A DNA stretch of 47,726 bases from Clostridia bacterium (GTDB lineage: Bacteria; Bacillota; Clostridia; Oscillospirales; CAG-272), in the NCBI GenBank assembly GCA_017456895.1, contig JAFTIN010000062.1:1-47726 (forward strand), in the 5' to 3' direction. A program made the position numbers and the translations under genes. Under the pieces are notes generated by a model. That model was not told where the DNA came from. It worked only from the letters and a program-made list of their open reading frames with translations, and ran no database searches. This document shows, piece after piece, positions 22,488 through 33,581 of this stretch; position 1 is the stretch's first letter, and each line of letters begins with the position of its first letter.

Positions 22488-22571
22488 GCGGGAGTGGCGG
22501 AATCGGCAGACGCGCACGTTTGAGGGGCGTGTGTTTCCAACGTACGGGTTCAAGTCCCGTCTCCCGCACCA
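22488..22571 (+). tRNA. tRNA-Leu (anticodon GAG)
   Basis: The acceptor GCGGGAG (22488-22494) pairs with CTCCCGC (22561-22567), followed by discriminator A and an encoded CCA. The anticodon stem CACGT/GCGTG encloses the loop TTGAGGG, giving anticodon GAG, which reads CUC and CUU. The T arm is CGGGTTCAAGTCCCG. A long variable arm makes it class II, as expected for leucine. It has its own promoter and terminator. Confidence 0.95.
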
Positions 22572-29396: not shown

Positions 29397-29434
29397 TTGT
29401 TAAAAAAGATATTAATATAATGAGCGGGTGAGTT

Positions 29435-29662
29435 TTAGTATATTTTTATTCTTTCAGGCGGAGGGCACTCAAGGCAAGATCCTCTATCGTATAATTCTTT
29501 AGGGAGCGCCTTTTTGCAAGCAGGACATTCATGCTTGGGCCTCATTCTTAGTTGAGGATCATAATCGGTAATTATTATTTCGATGCCCGGCTGCAGGTTG
29601 TATTTATCGCGTAGCTTTTTCGGTATAGTTATTTTTCCGTTTTTATCGATCCTTAGTTCCAT
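29435..29662 (-). CDS. AbrB/SpoVT-type regulator with zinc-ribbon tail
   Basis: A 75-residue protein starting MELRIDKNGKITIPKKLRDK, a swapped-hairpin AbrB DNA-binding domain (residues 1-45, with LQPGIEIIITDYD). The tail has two CxxC pairs (CPACKK, then CLEC), probably binding zinc. AbrB domains act as dimeric transition-state or antitoxin-like regulators. The start is fixed by GGAGG upstream. An intrinsic terminator lies in its leader just before the ribosome site, so expression probably depends on read-through of the structured RNA at 29692-29903. A longer frame from 29755 crosses that terminator and is rejected. Confidence 0.8.
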   Translation of the reverse strand: MELRIDKNGKITIPKKLRDKYNLQPGIEIIITDYDPQLRMRPKHECPACKKALPKELYDRGSCLECPPPERIKIY

Positions 29663-29691
29663 ATACAGTCCTCCAAAAATATTATTAAAAA

Positions 29692-29903
29692 AACAAAAAG
29701 CGCGGCAACCGAAGCGCCGCGCCGAAAAACACAAACTCCGATTGCTGCTACACAAAACTTAATGATTCACGAGATAAACTGCACTACTCACCAAGTGGAA
29801 TTTGCGTTTTTACCAAATTCATTATGATGAAATAGTATAGCAATAAAACACTCTATCAAAAATAGAGCGCATCTCGTGTAGAAATTATAAAGTTTTGTGT
29901 AGC
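29692..29903 (-). ncRNA. Structured leader or small RNA ending in an intrinsic terminator
   Basis: Transcription from the promoter at 29910-29938 would begin near 29903. The first bases, CTACACAAAACTT (29902-29890 on minus), pair perfectly with AAGTTTTGTGTAG (29760-29748), and CACGAGAT pairs with ATCTCGTG further in. Inside are smaller hairpins: CTCTAT/ATAGAG (29851-29867 on plus), TTCAT-CATA-ATGAA and AATTTG/CAAATT. A terminator follows (GCGCGGC/GCCGCGC, then a T run, 29692-29725), about 20 nt before the AbrB-like gene's ribosome site. It contains no T-box sequence and matches no riboswitch I know. A 6S-like RNA is an alternative. Confidence 0.6.
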
Positions 29904-29909
29904 GAATTA

Positions 29910-29938
29910 ATTATACCACAATCGAGAATAATAGTCAA
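29910..29938 (-). promoter_or_regulatory. Sigma-A promoter of the structured RNA / AbrB gene
   Basis: TTGACT, 17-bp spacer and TATAAT on the minus strand, with an extended TGG before the -10. Confidence 0.82.
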
Positions 29939-29941
29939 TAG

Positions 29942-29982
29942 AAAAAAACGAAGGCACTGCAGAAAAATCCGCAGTGCCTTTT
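29942..29982 (-). terminator. Intrinsic terminator of the hydrogenase operon
   Basis: AAGGCACTGC (29951-29960) pairs with GCAGTGCCTT (29971-29980). On minus it is followed by a T run. Confidence 0.9.
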
Positions 29983-29993
29983 AAAACTAAATA

Positions 29994-31742
29994 TTAGTTG
30001 TACTTCTTTCTTGCAACGTAAGAAGTGTGGAGAGTATGGTGAGCCTTGTGACAGCCGTAGCCACCCTTGAAGTAGTTGTCATATACTTCCTTGATGATAG
30101 GGTTCTGGTGAGACTTACGCATAGTCATAGCCTCGTCCTGAGCGTAGAGCGCCTTAGCTCTCTCTGCCTTGAGGTCTACGGTATCACGTACGTGCTGAGG
30201 CTGGATAGGCTGACCGCCGCCGTTTACACAGCCGCCGGGACAACCCATGATCTCAACGAAGGTCCAGTCTGCCTCGCCCTTTGCGATCTTGTCCATAACG
30301 AGCTTCGCGTTAGACGCGCCGCTTGCTACGGCAACCTTGATCTCAAGGCCTGCGATGTTGTAGGTAGCCTCCTTAAGACCGTCGGTACCTCTTACCTCGT
30401 GGAACTCGATGGAGTCGTTATCCTTGCCGGTGAGAACGTCGTTGGCGGTTCTGAGAGCAGCCTCCATAACACCGCCTGTAGCACCGAAGATAACTGCTGC
30501 GCCGGTATCTACGCCGAGAGGATTGTCGAACTCCTCGTCGGGAAGAGTGGTGAACTTAAGACCGGTTCTCTTGATCATACGGGCAAGCTCACGGGTGGTG
30601 AGTGCAACGTCAACGTCAACGATGCCTTCGCCTGCTGCACACATATCCTCTCTCTGTACCTCAAACTTCTTTGCAGTACAGGGCATGATAGAAACTACGA
30701 AGATATCCTTAGGATCGTATCCCATCTTATCAGCCCAGTAGGTCTTGATGAGCGCGCCGCCCATCTGCTGAGGAGACTTGCAGGAGGAGAGGTGATTGAT
30801 GAAATCGGGGTAGTAGAGTTCGCAGAACTTAACCCAACCGGGAGAGCAGGAGGTGATCATAGGAAGGGTTCCGCCGTTCTTAACTCTCTCGAGAAGCTCG
30901 GTTGCTTCCTCAACGATAGTGAAGTCTGCCGCGGTATTAGTGTCGAATACCTTCTCAAAGCCGATTCTGCGGAGAGCGGCAACCATCTTACCCTCAACAT
31001 TGGTTCCGATAGGCATATCGAAGCACTCGCCGAGAGTCGCGCGGATAGAGGGAGCGGTCTGAACCACTACGTGCTTTGTAGGATCGTTAAGAGCTGCCCA
31101 TACCTTATCGGTGTCATCTCTCTCTACGAGAGCGCCGGTAGGACATACAGCGGTACACTGACCGCAGGAGATACAGGGAGTCTCGCCAAGATCCATATTG
31201 AAGGGCTGGCCGATGCAGGTATCGATACCGCGGTTGTTAGCGCCGATAACCGATACGTACTGCTCGTTACATACTGCTACACATCTACGGCAGAGGATAC
31301 ACTTGTTGTTATCTCTTACGAGGTGAGGAGTGGAGTAGTCGAGCTCGTAGGTGGGCTTGAAGCCGCCGAAGGCGTTCTGGTCAACACCGTACTCAAGACA
31401 GAGCTTCTGAAGCTCACAGTTGGTGCTTCTTACACAGCTTAGACAGCTCATGTCGTGTGTGGAGAGGATGAGCTCGAGAGTAGTCTTACGAGCCTCTCTT
31501 ACCTTCTGGGTGTTGGTCTTGATCTCCATACCCTCGGTTACGGGGTATACGCAGGCGGTAACAAGTCCGCGAGCGCCGGTAGCCTCAACAACACAGATAC
31601 GGCAAGCGCCGATCTCATTCTTTTCTTTCATATAGCAGAGGGTAGGGATCTCTACGCCTGCTGCGCGCGCAGCCTCAAGAATGGTTGCGCCCTTGGGTAC
31701 GCTTACAGCAATACCGTTAACTTTACAATTAAGCATTTCCAT
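29994..31742 (-). CDS. hydA: [FeFe] hydrogenase catalytic subunit (HydA/HndD-like)
   Basis: A 582-residue enzyme. Domains in order: a [2Fe-2S] ferredoxin domain (Cys36, 47, 50, 64); a His/Cys3 [4Fe-4S] site (HDMSCLSCVRSTNC, residues 96-109); two [4Fe-4S] clusters (CILCRRC and CISCGQCTAVC); and the H-cluster domain with L1 TSCSPGW (297-303), L2 MPCTAKKFE (353-361) and L3 EIMGCPGGCVNGGGQP. All active-site residues are present. It interconverts H2 and protons/electrons. With the NuoF- and NuoE-like genes of the same operon it probably forms an electron-bifurcating enzyme using NADH and ferredoxin. It is the last gene of the operon; cofactor maturases (HydEFG) are not in this window. Confidence 0.95.
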   Translation of the reverse strand: MEMLNCKVNGIAVSVPKGATILEAARAAGVEIPTLCYMKEKNEIGACRICVVEATGARGLVTACVYPVTEGMEIKTNTQKVREARKTTLELILSTHDMSCLSCVRSTNCELQKLCLEYGVDQNAFGGFKPTYELDYSTPHLVRDNNKCILCRRCVAVCNEQYVSVIGANNRGIDTCIGQPFNMDLGETPCISCGQCTAVCPTGALVERDDTDKVWAALNDPTKHVVVQTAPSIRATLGECFDMPIGTNVEGKMVAALRRIGFEKVFDTNTAADFTIVEEATELLERVKNGGTLPMITSCSPGWVKFCELYYPDFINHLSSCKSPQQMGGALIKTYWADKMGYDPKDIFVVSIMPCTAKKFEVQREDMCAAGEGIVDVDVALTTRELARMIKRTGLKFTTLPDEEFDNPLGVDTGAAVIFGATGGVMEAALRTANDVLTGKDNDSIEFHEVRGTDGLKEATYNIAGLEIKVAVASGASNAKLVMDKIAKGEADWTFVEIMGCPGGCVNGGGQPIQPQHVRDTVDLKAERAKALYAQDEAMTMRKSHQNPIIKEVYDNYFKGGYGCHKAHHTLHTSYVARKKYN

Positions 31743-31760
31743 TTTTGCGTACTCCTTTCA

Positions 31761-33581
31761 TTATATCTTGGAAATTGCACCGAACTTACAGCCGGCCATA
31801 CAAGCACCGCACTTGATACACTTAGCGGTGTCGATCTCGTAGGAGGGAAGCTTGTGTCCGGGAGCAACGTAGTCGGTCTTGTGGATAGCGTCAACAGGGC
31901 AGTTCTTAGCGCACTTGCCGCAGCCGATACACTTGTCCTGATCAATGTTGAAGGAGAGGAGGTTCTTACATACCCCTGCGGGACACTTCTTGTCTACAAC
32001 GTGAGCGATATACTCGTCGCGGAAGAAGTTGAGGGTAGCGAGAACGGGGTTGGGAGCAGTCTGTCCGAGACCGCAAAGGGAGTTAGCCTTGATGTAGTTG
32101 CAGAGCTCCTCGAGTCTGTCGATATCCTCGAGAGTTCCGTTACCGTCGGTGATCTTGTTAAGGAGCTCGAGAAGACGCTTGGTACCTACACGGCAGGGAG
32201 TACACTTACCGCAGGACTCGTCAACGGTGAACTCAAGGAAGAACTTAGCCATATCAACCATACAGGTGTCCTCGTCCATAACGATAAGACCGCCCGAGCC
32301 CATCATACAACCGATGGAAACGAGGTTATCGTAGTCAACCTCGGTGTCGATAAGCGAAGCAGGGATACAACCGCCGGAGGGACCACCGGTCTGAGCTGCC
32401 TTGAACTTCTTGCCGTTGGGGATACCGCCGCCGATGTCGTAGATGATCTCACGGAGGGTAGTACCCATGGGGATCTCAACAAGACCGGTGTGCTCGATCT
32501 TACCGCCGAGAGCGAATACCTTAGTACCCTTGGATCTCTCAGTACCCATAGATGTGAACCACTCTACGCCGTTAAGAATGATCTGGGGAATGTTAGCGAA
32601 GGTCTCAACGTTGTTCTCAACGGTGGGCTTGCCGTAAAGGCCCTTAACTGCAGGATACGGAGGACGGGGACGGGGCTCACCGCGGTTACCCTCGATAGAG
32701 GTCATAAGAGCGGTCTCCTCACCGCATACAAACGCGCCTGCGCCAAGTCTGATCTCGAGGTCGAAATCGAAGCCGGAGTTGAATATATTCTTACCGAGAA
32801 GGCCGTATTCCTTAGCCTGGTCGATAGCGTGCTGGAGTCTATTTACCGCAATGGGGTACTCTGCACGGACGTAAACGTAACCCTTGGTCGCGCCGATAGC
32901 GTAACCGCAGATGATCATTGCCTCAATAAGAGCGTGGGGGTCGCCCTCAAGGATAGAACGGTCCATGAATGCTCCGGGGTCACCCTCGTCCGCATTACAT
33001 ACAACGTACTTCTGGTCTGCCTTGTTGGGAGCGGTGAGAGCCCACTTTCTACCGGTTGGGAAGCCTCCGCCTCCTCTGCCGCGAAGACCGGAATCGGAAA
33101 CTACCTTGATTACCTCCTCGGGAGTCATCTCGGTGAGAACCTTACCGAGAGCCTGGTAACCGTCCATAGCTATGTACTCTTCGATATTGTCGGGGTCGAT
33201 AACACCGCAGTTACGGAGTACGATACGCTTCTGGGACTTGTAGAAAGCGGTATCATTAAGAGATACGCTTGCCTTCTCAACGATCTCCTCTGCGCCGGTA
33301 TCTGCATATACGAGACGCTCAACTACACGACCCTTGAGAAGATGCTCCTCAACGATCTCCTTAACGTCCTCGGGAGTTACACGGCTGTAGAAGGTGCCGT
33401 CGGGATATACGATAACAACGGGGCCGAGAGCACAGAGACCGAAGCAACCGGTCTGTACGAGCTTAACCTCGTTCTCAAGGCCGAAAGCCTTGATGTTTTC
33501 CTGGAAAGCGGCCTGGATCTTGCTACTGCCTGAGGAGGTACAGCCTGTACCGCCACAAACAAGAACTTGTGCACGAATCAT
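31761..33581 (-). CDS. hydB: Hydrogenase NADH-binding subunit, NuoF-like (HydB/HndC)
   Basis: A 606-residue flavoprotein. An N-terminal thioredoxin-like [2Fe-2S] domain (CGGTGCTSSGS, then TGCFGLC) is followed by the FMN/NADH domain (GLRGRGGGGFPTGRKW, GAFVCGEETALM) and a [4Fe-4S] helical domain (CGKCTPCRVGTKRL). The C-terminal 60 residues hold two more [4Fe-4S] ferredoxin motifs (CIGCGKCAKNCP and CIKCGACMAGC). This multi-cluster layout is that of HydB/HndC in bifurcating hydrogenases. It accepts or delivers electrons to NAD(H). It ends 18 bp before hydA. Confidence 0.95.
   Translation of the reverse strand: MIRAQVLVCGGTGCTSSGSSKIQAAFQENIKAFGLENEVKLVQTGCFGLCALGPVVIVYPDGTFYSRVTPEDVKEIVEEHLLKGRVVERLVYADTGAEEIVEKASVSLNDTAFYKSQKRIVLRNCGVIDPDNIEEYIAMDGYQALGKVLTEMTPEEVIKVVSDSGLRGRGGGGFPTGRKWALTAPNKADQKYVVCNADEGDPGAFMDRSILEGDPHALIEAMIICGYAIGATKGYVYVRAEYPIAVNRLQHAIDQAKEYGLLGKNIFNSGFDFDLEIRLGAGAFVCGEETALMTSIEGNRGEPRPRPPYPAVKGLYGKPTVENNVETFANIPQIILNGVEWFTSMGTERSKGTKVFALGGKIEHTGLVEIPMGTTLREIIYDIGGGIPNGKKFKAAQTGGPSGGCIPASLIDTEVDYDNLVSIGCMMGSGGLIVMDEDTCMVDMAKFFLEFTVDESCGKCTPCRVGTKRLLELLNKITDGNGTLEDIDRLEELCNYIKANSLCGLGQTAPNPVLATLNFFRDEYIAHVVDKKCPAGVCKNLLSFNIDQDKCIGCGKCAKNCPVDAIHKTDYVAPGHKLPSYEIDTAKCIKCGACMAGCKFGAISKI

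Follow-up and report, generated by a model that had tools for sequence, protein, structure and literature searches.

The 47,726-nucleotide stretch of DNA analysed here (the window) carries on its reverse strand, at 29938-29687, a structured element made up of a promoter, an RNA of about 213 nt, a terminator and a ribosome binding site. An earlier reading of the letters had placed the element in front of an AbrB-type regulator gene; the structured leader is real, but it is one copy of a larger repeated class, and the copies in gut Clostridia precede many different, unrelated single genes, a good number of which encode envelope proteins. The RNA probably acts as a self-contained 5' leader by which transcription of the downstream gene is switched. 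The pairings rest on the comparison of copies, and from these we infer the switching, its direction and its trigger. The mechanistic kind is already known, and the RNA class itself is apparently new. There are hundreds of copies in gut Clostridia, and the class seems to be undescribed, being absent from Rfam 15 and from the literature searched.

The leader RNA and its helices

The features of the window copy, all on the reverse strand, are as follows.

29933-29938, reverse strand: -35 hexamer TTGACT (sequence)
29910-29915, reverse strand: -10 hexamer TATAAT, 6 nt ahead of P1 (sequence)
29890-29903, reverse strand: 5' strand of P1, presumed RNA start, pairing with 29760-29747 (fold and copies)
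29871-29878, reverse strand: 5' strand of P2, pairing with 29768-29775 (fold; swap test)
29848-29870, reverse strand: inner, terminator-like hairpin with a U-rich stretch after it (fold and sequence)
29825-29844, reverse strand: 5' strand of P3, pairing with 29778-29793 (fold; swap test)
29798-29820, reverse strand: P4, a local hairpin GAATTTG/CAAATTC (fold; covariation in copies)
29797-29811, reverse strand: 5' strand of the pseudoknot, AAAAACGCAAATTCC, with CAAATTC common to P4 (covariation; duplex energy)
29778-29793, reverse strand: 3' strand of P3 (fold; swap test)
29768-29775, reverse strand: 3' strand of P2 (fold)
29747-29760, reverse strand: 3' strand of P1 (fold and comparative tests)
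29736-29745, reverse strand: 5' strand of the antiterminator, GCAATCGGAG (copies and fold energies)
29725-29739, reverse strand: 3' strand of the pseudoknot, GGAGTTTGTGTTTTT, with GGAG common to the antiterminator (covariation and swap tests)
29705-29714, reverse strand: 3' strand of the antiterminator, CTTCGGTTGC, within the terminator hairpin (copies and fold energies)
29699-29723, reverse strand: intrinsic terminator hairpin, with a U-rich tail to 29687 (sequence and fold)
29670-29674, reverse strand: ribosome binding site GGAGG (sequence)
29435-29662, reverse strand: gene for an AbrB-type protein of 75 aa with two CxxC motifs (TIGR01439, PF04014)

Much of this layout had been anticipated by the sequence-only reading. 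The good promoter that it described is near-consensus (TTGACT-17-TATAAT, an 11/12 match with TG ahead of the -10 hexamer), its second 8-bp stem is P2 (29878-29871 with 29775-29768), and the several hairpins that it placed within a transcript of about 210 nt recur in the fold, with a predicted length of about 213 nt. The long-range stem of 13 bp is upheld by both fold and copies, with its length corrected to 14 bp (P1, 29903-29890 with 29760-29747). The intrinsic terminator had been put about 20 nt before the ribosome binding site; it lies 24 nt from that site and 36 nt from the ATG at 29662. Two long-range pairings were missed, namely the pseudoknot and the antiterminator.

The window RNA folds at -79.1 kcal/mol (z -7.05), and none of 200 dinucleotide shuffles was as good (mean -48.35, sd 4.36). 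In this fold, the body closed by P1 holds P2, the inner hairpin, P3 and P4. The protein encoded behind it matches TIGR01439 (E 6.9e-09, above that model's cutoff) and PF04014 (E 2.1e-05). Upstream of the leader lie two genes, for an [FeFe]-hydrogenase and a NuoF-like subunit (window 29994-33581), and the promoter of the leader comes directly after a strong, terminator-like hairpin with a U run that follows the hydrogenase gene (window 29951-29980).

Several sets of copies were used for the comparative tests. A set of 203 copies had been chosen by P1 and pseudoknot scores, which biases its averages for these two helices, and its script passed over 33 of 60 newly retrieved loci, as well as 10 of the 20 weaker ones, in many cases because the anchor required CAA where the tail has CTA. 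It contains at least two chance picks, and a 204-copy set has one more (L251). Because of this bias and incompleteness, the P1 test was repeated on 156 copies picked by the tail only, and the pseudoknot and antiterminator tests on 245 copies picked without pseudoknot or antiterminator criteria.

These comparative tests support P1, P2, P3, P4, the pseudoknot and the antiterminator as predicted pairings. Among the 156 tail-picked copies, 153 reached a P1 helix score of at least 24, against 53 when partners were swapped and 1 when letters were shuffled. P2 scored 23.08 with its own partner and 15.99 with swapped partners in 174 long copies, and P3 scored 28.36 against 18.26 in 203 copies, both comparisons being uncorrected for relatedness. 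In P4, four of seven pairs had changed on both sides, a level that none of 500 shuffles attained.

The pseudoknot is a 15-bp helix between the loop of P4 and the tail immediately downstream of P1, with a duplex energy of -18.9 kcal/mol in the window. In an alignment of 29 copies, 98.9% of its cells are paired and 5 of the 15 pairs have changed on both sides; taken together with the terminator, it scored higher than all of 500 shuffles. RNAalifold chose the pseudoknot unprompted from this alignment, along with the terminator, and did not predict P1, P2 or P3. The 245-copy set gave 30.07 for own and 27.63 (sd 0.15) for swapped partners, again uncorrected for relatedness. Of 33 copies with unusual tails, which include a few chance picks, 17 paired better with their own pseudoknot loop than with a canonical loop, and 14 paired worse. 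Two copies (L224 and L295) have both the pseudoknot and the antiterminator rewritten and yet complementary.

A further hairpin with a run of five U residues, terminator-like and about 60 nt into the RNA, is found in 111 of the 174 long copies. Its 5' strand may pair with the distal P2 partner (local pairing scored 16.36, against 15.0 swapped), and an early second switch is therefore possible.

Antiterminator and proposed switch

The tail strand that enters the pseudoknot has a second potential partner, in that its segment CAATCGGAG can pair with CTTCGGTTG within the terminator, using the loop and the 3' side of the terminator hairpin. The signal for this antiterminator is clear only once divergent copies are included. 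The 29 closest copies have 96.2% of their cells paired, with covariation not beyond that of shuffles; the 245-copy set scored 18.4 with own and 16.88 (sd 0.11) with swapped partners. Of the 245 copies, 192 could be classified by the letters in tail and terminator: 162 had CAA with TG, 16 had CTA with AG, 4 and 6 were mixed and 4 were of other kinds (relatedness is uncorrected in this count and in the swapped comparison). Twenty of the 33 unusual-tail copies, a few of which are chance picks, paired better with their own terminator than with the canonical one, and eight paired worse.

When tail-terminator RNAs were folded in isolation (n=200), the mean probability of tail-terminator pairing was 0.433, against 0.046 for shuffled tails, and the antiterminator had a probability above 0.5 in 82 of the 200 copies and of 0.5 or less in 118. 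The native tail did not lower the total energy in these 200 copies (-19.3 kcal/mol, against -19.69 kcal/mol with shuffled tails). In the window, the antiterminator fold comes to -19.9 kcal/mol and the terminator, with the tail strand blocked, to -16.9 kcal/mol.

Transcription attenuation is proposed because the pseudoknot shares bases both with P4 and with the antiterminator. Comparison of the copies supports a promoter at fixed spacing from which the RNA starts at P1, a body formed by P1, P2 and P3, and two choices of partner: the P4 loop strand can form P4 locally or the pseudoknot with the tail after P1, and this tail has the terminator's loop and 3' side as its other possible partner. In the presumed OFF state, a signal would stabilise the body together with the pseudoknot, leaving the tail occupied and the antiterminator weakened, such that the terminator forms and the RNA of about 213 nt is released. 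In the presumed ON state the pseudoknot would be open, P4 and the antiterminator would form, and RNA polymerase would read into the gene. The mutual exclusivity of the helices is a prediction read from the shared strands. Its weakest link is the overlap between pseudoknot and antiterminator, which consists of GGAG only, so that a shortened pseudoknot could coexist with the antiterminator. The relay from P4 through pseudoknot and antiterminator to the terminator gives direct and clean mutational predictions.

In its architecture the RNA resembles a riboswitch or attenuator that controls transcription. The leader layout of the riboswitch kind (promoter, structured RNA, expression platform, gene) is present in 188 of 204 copies, and the comparison of copies points to alternative helices that link the body to the terminator; membership among the riboswitches could be claimed only with a ligand. 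A general signal, such as a second messenger, an ion or a stress, seems likelier than a pathway metabolite, since one RNA class precedes many unrelated single genes.

Distribution and the genes behind the copies

When the window's own genome and 97 relatives were searched at the DNA level, 47 of the 98 had matches, frequently more than one each. A model was also built from the 29 copies that the script could delimit, covering the 3' part only. At genus level it hit 51 of 69 genomes, with a maximum of 15 hits in one genome; the order gave 141 of 394 genomes, the class 93 of 391 and the phylum 1 of 398, this last being the window's own. In the order, class and phylum searches eight candidates were scored per genome, which makes the copy numbers lower bounds, and the stricter filters used there may lose weak matches. 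Twenty of the weaker listed matches were inspected by eye, and all 20 had P1-like ends, a tail and a terminator; among 32 further loci, one (L271) was without an evident 5' strand of P1 and another (L290) had a damaged terminator. The organisms named for the 80 of 118 stretches listed are uncultured Clostridia, Oscillospiraceae and similar, many of them from ruminant gut. In 23 of 204 copies, one of these a chance pick, the P1 ends are less than 135 nt apart; by eye, this shorter form is without the P2 arm.

A ribosome binding site and an open reading frame follow directly on the same strand in 188 of 204 copies, and in 148 of 156 when the tail-picked set is used; the remaining 16 of the 204 have no clear open reading frame behind them. 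Promoter spacing is fixed across the 204-copy set: a -10 hexamer with at least five of six matches is present in 186 copies, lying exactly 6 nt before P1 in 168 of these, and a -35 hexamer with at least four of six matches is present in 169, with a spacing of 17 in 165.

A Pfam search with 145 of the 188 downstream proteins returned 74 families. Among the 25 families listed, BspA-type repeats and zinc ribbons each occurred 7 times, AbrB/MazE 5 times, and SLH and SLOG-type YpsA 3 times each; these 25 held no aminoacyl-tRNA or amino-acid gene family, and a metabolic theme, for which they likewise gave no sign, was set aside. A defence-gene theme was rejected as well, the PADLOC matches being scattered: of the 33 families, 25 were listed, and none of these took in more than 2 of the 145 proteins. 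Exported proteins and proteins with CxxC motifs are over-represented among the products of the genes behind the copies. Measured against 861 other open reading frames from the 8-kb loci, called with our own simple ORF caller, the 179 targets of at least 50 aa more often had an N-terminal hydrophobic segment (85/179 vs 144/861), a lipobox (30/179 vs 36/861) or at least two CxxC motifs (38/179 vs 47/861). A small protein family with a CLGNGEQGFECCCDEC core stands behind 17 of the 188 copies (L005, L011, L141, L155 and others), and the one member searched had no NCBIfam match.

The special link to the AbrB regulator, which the sequence-only reading had drawn, did not hold up. The window's AbrB gene is accessory: just two of the 69 genus genomes have a match, the window's own and another with 37% identity, against 51 of 69 for the RNA model, and AbrB was rejected as the characteristic regulated partner. 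Since the copies precede unrelated single genes, the link is incidental.

It is possible, and we suggest it tentatively, that this is a riboswitch-type class spread across much of the Clostridia, responding to one general intracellular signal, with up to 15 copies per genome and a regulon of envelope and accessory proteins, in which released RNAs might cross-regulate one another by the 15-nt complementarity of loop and tail. Such cross-regulation is conceivable because loop and tail are nearly identical in most copies. A class of this kind would unite many orphan lipoproteins, zinc-ribbon proteins and SLOG-like proteins in one regulon and would point to an undescribed signal.

Known RNAs and alternative readings

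At gathering score, an Rfam search over the window found a tRNA at 22488-22568 and nothing at the leader, and searches of two sets of 12 and 14 loci with Rfam 15 found only tRNA, tmRNA and TPP, all outside the element. A lax search of 29400-30200 gave nine matches, all under their own gathering scores (best E 0.0037), and a second lax search gave one sub-threshold match, to SNORA68 (E 0.026). No Rfam 15 covariance model, those for T-box, 6S, c-di-GMP-I/II and raiA included, matched over the element at gathering score, and identity with 6S or another known RNA was rejected. The class was not found in the literature searched (including PMC11109978, PMC8632094 and PMC8040213), where an unnamed entry in supplementary motif lists is possible. 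The earlier view of a riboswitch- or attenuator-like leader outside the known classes is thus strengthened by the homologues, in which the long-range stems are kept, by the covariation, and by the empty Rfam result at gathering scores.

Several known systems share parts of the design. T-box leaders are about 200 nt long, place a terminator and antiterminator ahead of a gene and occur in many copies per genome, all of which is seen or proposed here; the present RNA differs in having no Rfam T-box match. Among terminator-controlling riboswitches, the c-di-GMP riboswitches of Clostridia sit in leaders, let terminator and antiterminator exclude each other, and occur several times in a genome, where they control a regulon that includes surface proteins. 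The present RNA resembles them in position, in the proposed choice between terminator and antiterminator, in its multiple copies and in its surface-protein genes, whereas its fold is different and matches nothing in Rfam at gathering score. The nearest described layout is that of the Bartonella Brt RNAs (Brt1-9), a family of structured RNAs of about 200 nt with several members in one genome, every member standing immediately ahead of a gene and having a 3' terminator or riboswitch-like region at which read-through was proposed (PMC5387305). Size, repetition within a genome, position and the 3' terminator region are alike in the two. By their published description, the Brt RNAs are confined to Bartonella and all nine precede one family of HTH genes, which sets them apart from an RNA of Clostridia with unrelated downstream genes; the pseudoknot and antiterminator with covariation support are a further difference from the Brt RNAs as described there (PMC5387305).

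The element might instead be an attenuator in which a bound regulatory protein, perhaps the AbrB-type protein encoded behind some copies, chooses between pseudoknot and antiterminator. Genes of the AbrB type are indeed found behind several copies (5 of the 145 proteins match PF04014, and by eye L217, L219 and L220 have further ones), and paired arms of variable sequence with conserved loops would also suit protein binding. These genes are a small minority, however, and the genus counts for the window's own AbrB gene and for the RNA diverge as given above. AbrB folds, moreover, are known as DNA binders, and we consider this reading unlikely.

As another reading, the element could encode a separate small RNA that acts in trans and has a promoter and a terminator to itself; the genes behind it would then be expressed by leak-through or be neighbours by chance, and the conserved U/A-rich strands would target other RNAs. 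The tandem copies, each with promoter and terminator (three in L007 and three in L167), are consistent with this, and pairing in trans would be possible, as loops pair with the tails of other copies nearly as well as with their own (28.78 vs 31.06). Action both in cis and in trans was proposed for the Brt RNAs (PMC5387305). On the other hand, the direct succession of leader, same-strand ribosome binding site and gene in 188 of 204 copies argues against independence, as does the covariation of an antiterminator that a small RNA with a plain terminator would not need, and we regard the small-RNA reading as distinctly improbable. The 6S-like independent RNA that had been raised as an alternative is likewise the less likely reading, with no Rfam 6S match and with 188 of 204 copies ending shortly before a ribosome binding site and open reading frame.

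Many copies, some in tandem, with unrelated host genes and at times beside gene remnants (L096, L167, L295), could suggest a mobile or repetitive palindromic, MITE-like element that carries a promoter to any gene, but this is very improbable given that the conserved unit, instead of being bounded by the terminal inverted repeat P1, extends past it through tail and terminator, that promoter spacing is fixed, and that searches of plasmid, phage and viral sequence gave one UNVERIFIED phage record and no true viral-contig copy. In these searches, which could miss divergent copies, blastn with the window sequence found that one phage record and no plasmid record, and exact tail patterns occurred in 0, 0 and 1 stretches of viral contigs, the sole match (L299) being a chance match without the element. 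Phage or plasmid cargo was rejected on the same results.

Some individual copies deserve mention. The UNVERIFIED record, a 'Bacteriophage sp.' scaffold from human feces that is possibly a bacterial contig, holds a full copy before a lipoprotein-like gene (L296; MT835845.1, 1960-3256). L096, like L007 and L167, has copies in tandem that are each equipped with a promoter and a terminator; behind the upstream copies of L167 and L096 are short remnants that resemble the beginning of the gene following the last copy. A degenerate and apparently composite copy (L298, G002:C18) lies near the distant AbrB relative of 37% identity. The window's own genome has a second copy (L295, G000:C26:621-737), behind which a small Cys-rich gene has an early stop.
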